IMG/VR virus record: IMGVR_UViG_3300005589_000075
Location: 1-33,057 of that record
DNA from: a virus
DNA: 33,057 nt
Direction: 5' to 3' (one strand)
The position numbers were made by a program, and so were the translations under genes. A model generated the notes under the pieces. It was not told the DNA's origin. It saw nothing but the letters and a program-made list of their open reading frames with translations, and did no database searches. Shown in pieces: positions 18,408 to 27,921 of the stretch. How positions within the stretch are numbered: the first letter of the stretch is position 1; each line of letters starts with the position of its first letter.

Positions 18408-19010
18408 TTAGCGTCCTTTGTGGAACTGACGGGCGTGGAAACTGTTGAGGAAGTTATCATCCCCCTGACGCGTCTCGTAAGAGATAAGGGCCGCTCTGGC
18501 CTCATCTTCCTCTTCTTTTGTAAAGTAGTAGAGAATCTGCGATCCGATGCTAGCAGCTTGGAAGCGCCGCGCCGCGCGCATTGTGATGTAATCGCGCGCT
18601 GCCTGTGGGATGTCCTCAAAGGGGAGAAAATAGCTTATATCTGCGGTAATATCCTCGGCGAACTCAAAGGTGTTCTCTAGGCGATCCCACAGCTTCTGTA
18701 CGTTGCCATCGGAGCTGTCCGTGCGTGGCACCACGTCCATGAATGGGTCTGAGGGGTCGATGGAAAGGGCATTCGCAGGGACCAGAATGTGATCATTTAG
18801 GTCTCTCGTCATTTCCACATTGAGGTCAGTATTAAAGCTCCAGTCGTTATTCTGGACAGAGCGGGATACGTTATGCACATGAAGCTTCGCGATCTCGACG
18901 TCGCGTATCCCCGAAACCTCAATGGTGTTTACCGGGGACTGCCCGATCGACATCAATAGGACATTGACGGCATCAAGCTCGGTCATGGGTGTTAAAGGGA
19001 GTGTGGCCAT
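18408..19010 (-). CDS. Tail tubular protein A (T7 gp11-like)
   Basis: 200 residues (T7 gp11: 196). The start TPMTELDAVNVLLMSIGQSP and the later DRLENTFEFAEDITADI and PQAARDYITMRAARRFQ segments are hallmarks of this family. It forms the adaptor ring between portal and nozzle and binds the fibre N-termini. It begins the tail operon after the capsid terminator and tRNA-like element; the only upstream space is the stretch between 19011 and 19039. Confidence 0.95.
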   Translation of the reverse strand: MATLPLTPMTELDAVNVLLMSIGQSPVNTIEVSGIRDVEIAKLHVHNVSRSVQNNDWSFNTDLNVEMTRDLNDHILVPANALSIDPSDPFMDVVPRTDSSDGNVQKLWDRLENTFEFAEDITADISYFLPFEDIPQAARDYITMRAARRFQAASIGSQILYYFTKEEEDEARAALISYETRQGDDNFLNSFHARQFHKGR

Positions 19011-19038: not shown

Positions 19039-19105
19039 AGTCGGCGGCGGGGAATCGAACCCGCTCCTTATGGCGCGACCACAAGGCGTCTCCAGACCCA
19101 CCAAC
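19039..19105 (-). ncRNA. tRNA-like cloverleaf element
   Basis: On the minus strand the segment folds as a four-arm cloverleaf: acceptor-like stem of seven pairs (19099-19105 with 19040-19046, including two U-G pairs); a three-pair D-like hairpin GTC-TGGA-GAC (19088-19097); a middle hairpin of eight pairs with loop TCGCG (19066-19086); and a T-arm-like hairpin (19047-19064) with stem GCGGG/CCCGC and loop TTCGATTC. Linkers are 1, 1, 1 and 0 bases. The T-loop contains the tRNA signature TTCGATT but is one base too long, the middle loop is not a seven-base anticodon loop, and no CCA is encoded. It is therefore a tRNA-like or decayed tRNA, not a standard decoding tRNA. Confidence 0.5.
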
Positions 19106-19109
19106 ACAG

Positions 19110-19142
19110 AAAAAAAAAGCAGGGAACCCGAAGGTTCCCCGC
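19110..19142 (-). terminator. Intrinsic terminator after the capsid gene (Tphi position)
   Basis: Minus-strand stem of ten pairs (19119-19128 with 19133-19142) closed by a stable C(UUCG)G tetraloop and followed by nine U residues (19110-19118). One pair is U-G on this strand and would be A-C on the other, so it acts leftward. It starts seven bases past the capsid stop, as T7 Tphi lies between genes 10 and 11, and would give the capsid transcript a sharp 3' end. Confidence 0.93.
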
Positions 19143-19149
19143 TATGAGA

Positions 19150-20157
19150 TTAGGCGGTAGCCAGCTCCACTGCGCACTTGGTGCGGAGTGTACCGTGGCC
19201 CGTGGCGTACTTACCGTACACCAGCTCGCCGATGCGGCGTGGGTCATCAGCCATGGTCACCCCGACCTCGCGGAGATGCACAGAGGCGGCGGCCTGTTCA
19301 GTCCATACCATACCCACAGTGCTCGCCCAGTCGCCCTGATATTTGGCTTTGAGCTTAGCCACGTCAGCGGCGAGAGGATCGCTGGGGTGGCCGATCAGGC
19401 CATCTGTGTTCGTGGTGGCGTTGTAGGCGGTTTCATCACGACCGAACACAAAGGCGTTCGACTTCAGAACAATGACGTCGTTTACGGTCTTGATGCCACG
19501 GCCCGAGAGGGAGCCGGTGCCGCCAAAGTTCTTGTCGATGTTCTTGTCGTCGTTGGCCAGCAGGTAGTACTGAGCGGGTTTGAAGCCAGCATAGACCTGA
19601 AAAGTGTCAACAGGGACGTCCTTCTCATCCATAGTCTGAACGGCGTCGTTCAGGCCATTGAACAAGTCGGCGGCGACGGTGCCGTAGTTGGCGTTAGTCA
19701 GCGTAGACCCACCGAGGTCGTCGGTGAATAGGGCAGCGCCCCGCGAAGACAGAAGGATGTTCCGGCAGACGTTCCGATCATACTGGAGAGCCAGCTCACG
19801 GCCGATCTCCATGGCGTACTTGGAGCGGACATCCCACTCACTCATGGCCTCATCAATCTCTGAGATGAAAGTATCGGCGATCAGGAATCCGTCAACGCCG
19901 ATCAAAATCTGATCATGGTCAACGTTCTGGCCGAGGATTTCAGCGCCGGGTGTGTGGTAGCTGGAGCCGACCTTCCAAACGGCATCAAAGCTTGCGCTTT
20001 TACCGGACTGGATGGTCTTGATAGTGTGTTTGTCCTTCAGGAGAACCTGAGTTTCAAAAGCGGTGATTACTTCACCGGTAAACTGATCACGGAACAGTTC
20101 GAGGTCGTCGGAGCCACCTTCGCGAAGGCCCGGACGGGAGGGATTAGCAGCAGTCAT
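19150..20157 (-). CDS. Major capsid protein (T7 gp10-like)
   Basis: 335 residues (T7 gp10A: 345). N-terminal GGSDDLELFRDQFTGEVITA, then HTIKTIQSGKSASFDAVWKV and DGFLIADTFISEIDEAMSEW are the family's HK97-fold signature. It builds the T=7 head around the scaffold. The ATG has AAGGA six bases upstream. A 288-base leader precedes it and a strong terminator follows it directly, so the gene can be expressed at a high level on its own. No slippery site and extended frame like T7 gp10B were noticed. Confidence 0.97.
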   Translation of the reverse strand: MTAANPSRPGLREGGSDDLELFRDQFTGEVITAFETQVLLKDKHTIKTIQSGKSASFDAVWKVGSSYHTPGAEILGQNVDHDQILIGVDGFLIADTFISEIDEAMSEWDVRSKYAMEIGRELALQYDRNVCRNILLSSRGAALFTDDLGGSTLTNANYGTVAADLFNGLNDAVQTMDEKDVPVDTFQVYAGFKPAQYYLLANDDKNIDKNFGGTGSLSGRGIKTVNDVIVLKSNAFVFGRDETAYNATTNTDGLIGHPSDPLAADVAKLKAKYQGDWASTVGMVWTEQAAASVHLREVGVTMADDPRRIGELVYGKYATGHGTLRTKCAVELATA

Positions 20158-20445: not shown

Positions 20446-21291
20446 CTACAGAACGATTGTGCCCGACCGTTTGGATCGTGCGATCTTCTGTGCCACACGC
20501 GCGCGCTCGGCGCTCGATGTTTTGTAAAGTTCAGATGATTGGTCCTTGATCATCTCAAGGCGGTCTCCGTATGTGTCGCTGCCGCTGTTAGAGGGCGTAG
20601 CGTCCAACCGCTTACCAGAAACCCCGGTCGCCAACTGATACCTGGCGTATAGGCCCTTAATGGTTGACACTGTTTTCTTGGCGTCTGCAAGGTCGGCGTT
20701 GATACCTTCAATCTCATCAGGTGGTAGGCTCTCAGCCCACTTCATCATTGAGTTAAAGCTTTCCTCGCCCCCTGTCACCTCGTGCGCGGCAGCTAAGGCA
20801 GCCGTCTCCGACGCCTTGACACCCGCGAGGTATGTTTCAATCTGGCTGTCTGAGAAGCCGGCCTCTTTAAGGGTGGTTCGAGACTCCTCATTGAGTTCGC
20901 CAGTTTTAGCATACTGAGCCGCAGCAGCATCGACCGCTTTCTGGATGACTTCAGGTGCAGAAGACTCCTCGGCGGTTTCCTCGCTGCCGCCCTCTTTACT
21001 GGCCTCCTCGGAGCCAGCTTCAGGCTTACTCCGCGCGGCTTCAAGCTCGGCATACGATTTCGCCAATGCGTCTACGCGCACCTCACCCTTTTCAGCATCC
21101 CAAAACTTCTCTGGAATGTTATCCGGCCGGGCCGGTACTTCAGCTTCAGCGGCTTCAGTGGAACCTTCAGGTTCAGCTCCGCGCGTCCCTTCACGGGACT
21201 GCCGCCCGATCTCAGCCATGCGCGTAGCCCGCTCTTCCTTGGACTCAGGGGCCGCTTCTGTGTTCTCGCTGTTTTTCATTTCGACGGTCAA
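20446..21291 (-). CDS. Scaffold / capsid assembly protein (T7 gp9-like)
   Basis: 281 residues (T7 gp9: 307), highly acidic and Ala/Glu/Ser rich, with the typical NIPEKFWDAEKGEVRVDALA segment near residue 60 followed by SYAELE. It shapes the prohead and exits before DNA packaging. The C-terminal third (about residues 180-281) is helical and basic, as needed to contact the capsid protein. The start is a TTG at 21291: it has AGAGGAGAT seven bases upstream, whereas the in-frame ATG at 21279 is nineteen bases away. It follows the small basic gene and precedes the capsid leader. Confidence 0.9.
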   Translation of the reverse strand: MTVEMKNSENTEAAPESKEERATRMAEIGRQSREGTRGAEPEGSTEAAEAEVPARPDNIPEKFWDAEKGEVRVDALAKSYAELEAARSKPEAGSEEASKEGGSEETAEESSAPEVIQKAVDAAAAQYAKTGELNEESRTTLKEAGFSDSQIETYLAGVKASETAALAAAHEVTGGEESFNSMMKWAESLPPDEIEGINADLADAKKTVSTIKGLYARYQLATGVSGKRLDATPSNSGSDTYGDRLEMIKDQSSELYKTSSAERARVAQKIARSKRSGTIVL

Positions 21292-27204: not shown

Positions 27205-27921
27205 CTAGACGCCCTTTCCCTGTTTATCCAAGTCATAGGTCATCTTGAAAAGCTGGCGGGAGGCACTATGGAACACCATGATCCCTTCAGGCTTCTTATA
27301 GTGCTGCGCTCTGGCGAAGCTGCCAAAGTTCGCAAGCATCTCAAAACAATCGTTAACGACGTTTGTGCTATAAAAATCACCCACCCCTAGGACGGGGACG
27401 ACATCAACGCAGGCCGGGGCGAGAACTGCATCAGCGCCTCGCCTGCCTCCGGTAACCATGTCGAGAGACCAAGGGTGGTGGTAAGATTTCCACCTGTTGA
27501 CGTTAAAGAGCGCAAATACTCTATCCTTTAGGCCATAACCCCGCTGGATGCCGGAGCCGTACCACTCACCAAAGTGGGAGCCTTCGCCCAAATCAACAAG
27601 CTCACTTGCGTGTTCATAAGCCCACGCCGCGAACCCATAGTTATCCGTAGACTTATCTCCGGAGATACTTGCGGGCATCAGCCAGCGGTTCCGGGAGGCG
27701 GCGGCCATGACCCAAGCCTTCCCATCTTTAACGACAAGCCACCCGGAGTCTGAAGGGGCCTCCGGCTCGAGCGGGCAAACGACGTCTCGTGTCTTGGGCC
27801 GCTCAGTTACCGGCTTGATGTGGATGGAGGCGTTTGTCCCATCAAGCTTCTCCGTTATGACGCAGGAGCGGTCAAGCCGGGGTGTCTTTGGCATAGGGGT
27901 GAAATCATGGAAGAAGCTCAT
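27205..27921 (-). CDS. RNA ligase (T4 Rnl2-type fold)
   Basis: 238 residues. Nucleotidyltransferase motif I is ITEKLDGTNASI, with adenylated Lys25; motif III FGEWYGSGIQ; motif IIIa RVFALFNV; motif IV EGIMVF; motif V FKMTYD. The KLDGTN form and the size fit an RNA ligase rather than the T7-type DNA ligase (359 residues, different motif context). Such enzymes seal nicked RNA, classically tRNA cut by host defence nucleases. It is the first gene after the terminator at 27943-27969, with GAAGGA eight bases before ATG, and precedes the stub gene and polymerase. It replaces or adds to the T7 ligase gene 1.3, which lies in the early region. Confidence 0.85.
   Translation of the reverse strand: MSFFHDFTPMPKTPRLDRSCVITEKLDGTNASIHIKPVTERPKTRDVVCPLEPEAPSDSGWLVVKDGKAWVMAAASRNRWLMPASISGDKSTDNYGFAAWAYEHASELVDLGEGSHFGEWYGSGIQRGYGLKDRVFALFNVNRWKSYHHPWSLDMVTGGRRGADAVLAPACVDVVPVLGVGDFYSTNVVNDCFEMLANFGSFARAQHYKKPEGIMVFHSASRQLFKMTYDLDKQGKGV

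Follow-up and report, generated by a model that had tools for sequence, protein, structure and literature searches.

What is the 67-base, tRNA-shaped stretch that lies between the capsid terminator and gene 11 of this phage, and is it kept for some purpose or is it the remains of a tRNA gene? The window, by which we mean the whole stretch of DNA analysed, is a 33,057-base record of a T7-like podovirus whose late genes lie on the minus strand, in the order portal, scaffold, capsid, terminator, element, gene 11 and gene 12. The features of the locus are as follows.

19150..20157, minus strand: gene 10, major capsid protein, 335 aa (PHROG 267 major head protein, E 1.1e-52)
19110..19143, minus strand: intrinsic terminator 3′ of the capsid gene, GCGGGGAACC-TTCG-GGTTCCCTGC and then T9 (hairpin 19143-19118, T9 19118-19110)
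19106..19109, minus strand: spacer CTGT, 4 bases from the T-run to the element
19039..19105, minus strand: tRNA-like element, 67 bases, read from 19105 to 19039, defined by fold and by a cloverleaf descriptor
19068..19084, minus strand: anticodon arm of the element, TTGTG-GTCGCGC-CATAA, 5/5 pairs, by fold and descriptor
19047..19064, minus strand: T-arm of the element, GCGGG-TTCGATTC-CCCGC, 5/5 stem pairs
18408..19010, minus strand: gene 11, tail tubular protein A, 200 aa (PHROG 446 tail protein, E 2.6e-50), downstream of the element

The preliminary description had drawn attention to the location directly behind a strong terminator, and the coordinates bear this out, with four spacer bases between T9 and G1 (19105), the first base of the element. 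A search for a sigma-70 promoter beside the element found none. The window also carries an RNA ligase gene (27205-27921, minus strand; PF09414, 38.4 bits; PHROG 548) of a type that repairs cleaved tRNAs in other phages.

The cloverleaf is real. The four helices and the T-loop signature TTCGATT that had been described were confirmed by the predicted fold (−31.6 kcal/mol for the 67-mer) and by the specificity of the descriptor, and the element also forms inside the fold of its 151 nt context. Its acceptor stem, GTTGGTG/CGCCGAC, is fully paired (7/7, three of the pairs being G-U), and is followed by TATA (UAUA in the RNA), with U at position 73 and no CCA. The D-like arm of three pairs was seen again as GTC/GAC (3/3), closing a 4-base loop, TGGA, that retains GG, and the variable region has 3 bases. 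An eight-base T-loop had been reported; it stands as one drawing of the T-arm, but the arm can equally be drawn with a 7-base loop, TTCGATT, and a single bulged C in the stem. The statement that a seven-base anticodon loop is missing did not hold, since the loop GTCGCGC, with U33, the anticodon CGC at 19077-19075 and G37, sits on a 5-bp stem. That statement matches the minimum free energy (MFE) structure only, in which the anticodon stem is lengthened to nine pairs (CCTTGTGG/CCATAAGG) and G32-C38 and U33-G37 close the loop to a triloop, burying the anticodon.

Against chance, the evidence is modest by energy and strong by shape. The fold energy has a z-score of −2.29, and 5 of 200 shuffled sequences folded equally well. 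The strict descriptor, which asks for 7/7 acceptor pairs, 5/5 T-stem pairs, a TTCRA T-loop of 7-8 bases, a D-arm of at least 3 pairs, a 5/5 anticodon stem and a 7-nt anticodon loop with T33, was built with the element in view (the 8-nt T-loop and the short D-loop were permitted), so that its false-hit rate is the actual test. On both strands of the window it matched the element alone; 100 dinucleotide shuffles of the whole window gave 0 matches, and about 1 Mb of relatives gave only ordinary tRNA genes and an identical copy in L002. It is this lack of false hits that makes the shape evidence strong. With a looser descriptor the element was again the sole match in the window, with some non-tRNA matches in relatives.

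The element fails tRNA membership while keeping nearly the whole helical plan of a tRNA. ARAGORN called no tRNA there, and Rfam at its gathering scores left the element unmatched. A covariance-model search of the 67-mer had been suggested earlier; we ran it with Rfam, and the tRNA model RF00005 (cut-off 29 bits) gave no match even at E 10. The helices nevertheless follow an RF00005-type plan in the acceptor (7/7), T-stem (5/5) and anticodon stem (5/5), and the D-loop of 4 bases is outside the 7-11-base range of tRNAs. The judgement that this is not an ordinary tRNA is thus upheld by the two negative searches, the D-loop, the extra base of the T-arm and the missing CCA. The top Rfam scores for the stretch, all below threshold, were 18.3 bits for mascRNA and 17.8 for tRNA-Sec. 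A selenocysteine tRNA (RF01852) was considered under the marks of that family (more than 47 bits, a 12-13 bp acceptor/T stack, a long variable arm and a UCA anticodon) and rejected on its 17.8 bits against 47, its 3-base variable region and its anticodon CGC in place of UCA.

We then compared the capsid-gene 11 gap in about 70 relatives with both genes, mostly at 28-54% protein identity. A terminator of the same type lies behind the capsid gene in most of them, and the gap typically spans 60-110 bases with only the terminator and a ribosome site. In the window it spans 139 bases, a surplus of about the size of the element. All other copies found of the element were 100% identical (L002), and L003, which covers the neighbouring region, is from the same phage population. 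Scans for closer relatives with gene 11 (as a single sequence and as an alignment), capsid, gene 12 and portal returned either this population (L002, L003) or phages with gene 11 at no more than 54% identity, and a DNA search with the element in 50,697 phage records gave T-arm fragments only (best E about 7). Two unrelated phage contigs have the same 20-base T-arm string (L024:4030-4110 and L023:5600-5660); in the former, one can draw a 7/7 acceptor with ACCA after it, downstream of a terminator-like hairpin. ARAGORN, Rfam and the descriptor make no call in L024, and both contigs were set aside as supporting cases. ARAGORN also found no tRNA in the stretches fetched from Rhizobium and Pseudovibrio prophage relatives.

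One of the nearest relatives (L004, IMG/VR contig 3300012940_000200; capsid 53% identical) has a tRNA at the same spot. ARAGORN called a tRNA-Trp(CCA) at L004:229-300, within the gene 10-11 gap and about 6 bases past the T-run. This tRNA resembles the element in its gap, in the terminator T-run just before it, in its TTCGAT T-loop, in a 4-base D-loop with GG (AGGT there) and in scoring below the RF00005 cut-off (23.4 bits against 29; its tRNA-Sec score is 37.6 against 47). It differs in having a normal CTCCAAA anticodon loop, a normal 7-base T-loop and one acceptor mismatch, and its surroundings differ from the window in a CCA in the DNA 1-2 bases past the acceptor and a small ORF between the tRNA and gene 11. 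End to end, the element and this tRNA align nearly without gaps at 39/71 identities, a result equalled by 0 of 500 shuffles. Alignments with the tRNA-His of another relative, L057 (45/76 identities), and with a second tRNA of Rhizobium phage RHEph21 (42/76) are similar, so that a tRNA origin is supported and no particular tRNA is indicated. The sister of L004, L005, whose gene 11 is 78% identical, has no tRNA in the gap.

About ten further lineages have an isolated tRNA of varying identity on the opposite side of the capsid gene, between genes 9 and 10 (L047, L048, L057, L059, L065, L082 and L093; also L061, L070 and L072).

Gene 9-10 gap, tRNA-Asn: RHEph21 (L047), LUZ100, L065/L066; L070 (capsid position not mapped)
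Gene 9-10 gap, tRNA-Trp: L059/L073, L082
Gene 9-10 gap, tRNA-His: L057
Gene 9-10 gap, tRNA-Met: L093; L061 (capsid not mapped)
Gene 9-10 gap, tRNA-Cys: L072 (capsid not mapped)

Like the element, the tRNAs of L004, L059/L073 and L061 start about 3-6 bases past a terminator T-run, and in the two gene 9-10 lineages among them (L059/L073 and L061) the distance is 3 bases. In these sequences a T6 run lies equally close upstream of a random point in 0.13% of cases, a null that overstates the significance because both features favour intergenic DNA. The closest likeness on this side is the tRNA-Trp(CCA) of L059/L073, which is likewise unmatched by RF00005 and without CCA; it is 71 bases long, with a 4-bp D-stem and a 3-base D-loop, AGG, where the element has TGGA. 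Unlike the element, it precedes gene 10 and has a CTCCAAA anticodon loop, G73 and an intact A1-U72 pair (in the descriptor frame). These comparisons suggest that T7-like phages of this group recurrently keep a tRNA beside the capsid gene, often behind a terminator.

Two further observations concern RHEph21. Right after its annotated tRNA-Asn lies the second tRNA mentioned above (L047:2245-2314, MW980070.1 23184-23253), which is unannotated, was missed by ARAGORN and reaches 39.1 bits with RF00005; its anticodon hairpin has the loop TCGCG, the same as in the element. Just 5′ of the tRNA-Asn is a match to the abiF RNA (RF03085, L047:2062-2097, 38.0 bits against a cut-off of 37), which may also be a terminator-like hairpin.

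LUZ100 offers a mapped RNA end. Its terminators were deposited by a rule of −60 to +40 around the mapped 3′ end (PMC10134795). Under this rule, terminator T14 (20769-20868) places an RNA 3′ end at about 20828-20829, 1-3 bases upstream of the tRNA-Asn that precedes the capsid gene and starts at 20831. This is the position that an RNase P leader cut with slight trimming would give. A short hairpin and TTTC stand just before this end, and it could also be termination.

Taken together, the helices, the T-loop, the GG of the D-loop, U33 and G37, and the tRNA-Trp of L004 at the same spot make descent of the element from a tRNA well supported, as judged from sequence comparison. It has most likely lost decoding. 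The reading that we prefer, at a probability of roughly 0.45, is that a former phage tRNA was miniaturised, no longer decodes and is kept for its fold, as a processing or 5′-end-protecting site of the gene 11 read-through RNA. All 20 standard tRNA pairs of the element are intact. In a neutral simulation with at least 20% site divergence, all 20 pairs survived in about 0.1% of runs or fewer, with the ancestor assumed and a divergence that may be overstated. It is this intact pairing despite divergence that supports the step from a tRNA to a structural element.

In this model, a tRNA that once sat behind the capsid terminator would have become the element, and only transcripts reading through the terminator would contain it. 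Its acceptor/T-arm stack would form the central part of a substrate for the host RNase P, which would cut at G1 (19105). A stack of 12 bp is predicted, with the helix starting at the putative cut site. The cut would leave the capsid message with a 3′ end four bases past the T-run, near the hairpin-protected termination end, and would give the gene 11-12 message a 5′ end held in the paired acceptor stem. In bacterial mRNA decay generally, a paired 5′ end should slow RNase E. The element lacks the 3′ RCC(A) contact of RNase P substrates, having UAUA after the acceptor; the RCCA motif is described as helping RNase P in PMC12710915. RNase P may plausibly process the message of gene 11. A counterpoint is that phages without the element manage with a plain terminator. 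The wider proposal, a functional non-decoding tRNA mimic that separates the capsid and gene 11 messages by way of RNase P and is part of a broader habit of setting tRNAs or tRNA-shaped leaders at late-gene borders, seems to us rather unlikely. We found no reports of tRNA-like elements in T7-like late messages in the open-access papers searched, which leave most subscription journals outside.

The main rival is neutral decay, in which the element would be a tRNA pseudogene behind the terminator that is losing its D-loop, T-loop geometry and anticodon loop and has no function. Its rejection by both ARAGORN and RF00005 fits such a course, and so do the relatives: with only 23.4 bits for the tRNA of L004 in the same place, the slot seems tolerant of degenerate tRNAs, and the absence of a tRNA from its close sister L005 suggests that tRNAs are easily gained and lost there. 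Decay sits poorly with 20 of 20 intact pairs at only about 47-59% identity to the sampled phage tRNAs, and with an anticodon helix that has even gained pairs. Because the ancestor was assumed, only identical copies were found and the RCCA contact is missing, we hold the structural reading no more firmly than stated and regard decay as a possible, if doubtful, account.

It is improbable that the element works as a miniature tRNA, aberrant but still charged and used, that reads the Ala codon GCG with the anticodon CGC. The 5-bp anticodon stem with U33, CGC and G37 in a 7-base loop would suit decoding, GCG is frequent among the codons of the phage (20.5 per thousand), the second RHEph21 tRNA with the same loop TCGCG passes RF00005, and the tRNA-Trp of L059 likewise combines a tiny D-loop and no CCA with failure against RF00005. 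Against this, the MFE structure buries the anticodon inside a 9-bp hairpin, the acceptor has U3-G70 rather than the G3-U70 that marks tRNA-Ala, position 73 is U and the T-stem is bulged.

That the element is an attachment site, or a fragment of a host tRNA gene captured through integration, is very improbable. T7-like temperate phages do carry tRNA remnants, and in LUZ100 a tRNA-Leu adjoins the integrase (PMC10134795). The preliminary description had proposed a match to a host tRNA 3′ half and a search of host genomes for it. We made this search for exact matches of the 22-base 3′ segment GGTTCGATTCCCCGCCGCCGAC and found none in 84,980 bacterial and archaeal genomes; moreover, the element forms an entire cloverleaf where an attachment site would supply a 3′ half, and its T-arm, with an 8-base loop or a bulge from the extra base, would fail to regenerate a host tRNA, so the proposal is not supported. 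No integrase was found among the window proteins searched; the early region expected to hold one is missing from the contig. A chance fold in GC-rich intergenic DNA is equally remote, as the modest z-score, the one point in its favour, is outweighed by the absence of descriptor matches in the 100 shuffled windows and, beyond tRNAs, in the roughly 1 Mb of relatives, and by the coincidence of the element with the tRNA position of L004.

The element is most likely a degenerate or repurposed phage tRNA, and as such it offers a case for testing whether T7-like phages use tRNAs as message boundaries. If it is functional, a phage tRNA gene would have been turned into a signal for processing or protecting mRNA, and the isolated tRNAs beside capsid genes in many T7-like phages would gain a reason other than decoding. 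T7 cuts its own messages with RNase III, and an RNase P-based boundary among its relatives would, if true, be new. If the element is only decaying, it is still a record of a site behind late terminators where tRNAs come and go.

Among known RNAs, the element is like mascRNA/menRNA (RF01684) and tRNA-Sec (RF01852) in being a tRNA-like cloverleaf with odd arms. It stays far below the cut-offs of both (42.5 bits for the former), which are a eukaryotic RNA and a long-armed tRNA, respectively. The tRNA-Asn of RHEph21 and LUZ100, the tRNA-His of L057, the tRNA-Met of L061 and L093 and the tRNA-Cys of L072 lie beside the capsid gene as the element does, and that of L061 is also directly behind a terminator, but these are standard tRNAs that pass RF00005.

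Another conserved RNA hairpin lies upstream of the capsid gene (window 20248-20223, minus strand) and recurs in about 20 relatives, 85-140 bases upstream. Its GC-rich stem carries a UNCG-like tetraloop, an invariant GA(U/C)AAC on its 3′ strand looks like an asymmetric bulge, and the loci searched gave no Rfam match at gathering score.

A further parallel comes from the gene 9 leader of KP32-like Klebsiella phages (L126:1277-1336; L127-L138, L145, L150, L151, L156-L183), which was caught by the looser descriptor. This leader begins at +1 of the gene 9 promoter (GGGAGA...) and folds into a junction of three helices: 8-9 pairs close it, and it also has a middle arm and a hairpin resembling a T-arm, whose loop is UU(C/G/A)GAGU. 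T7 itself has a version (phi9 leader, L152:208-268). When 13 distinct sequences were aligned with MAFFT, both partners of a pair had changed in 39 cells, compared with 14 in shuffles, and the covariation score was 0.396 against 0.152 (0 of 500 shuffles reached it), with all slid registers far lower. A plain hairpin replaces the leader in K30 and Toyotomi, a different leader is found in KMI2 and RCIP0165, and in JSS1 the same leader element precedes gene 10 instead. Like the element, the gene 9 leader is a structured RNA 5′ of a late structural gene with a closing helix and a T-arm-like hairpin; unlike it, the leader starts at the +1 of a phage promoter, has three helices and lacks a D-arm. As far as tested, the two do not appear to be homologous. 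The leader shows that T7-like phages do begin late messages with structured RNA that is in part shaped like a tRNA.
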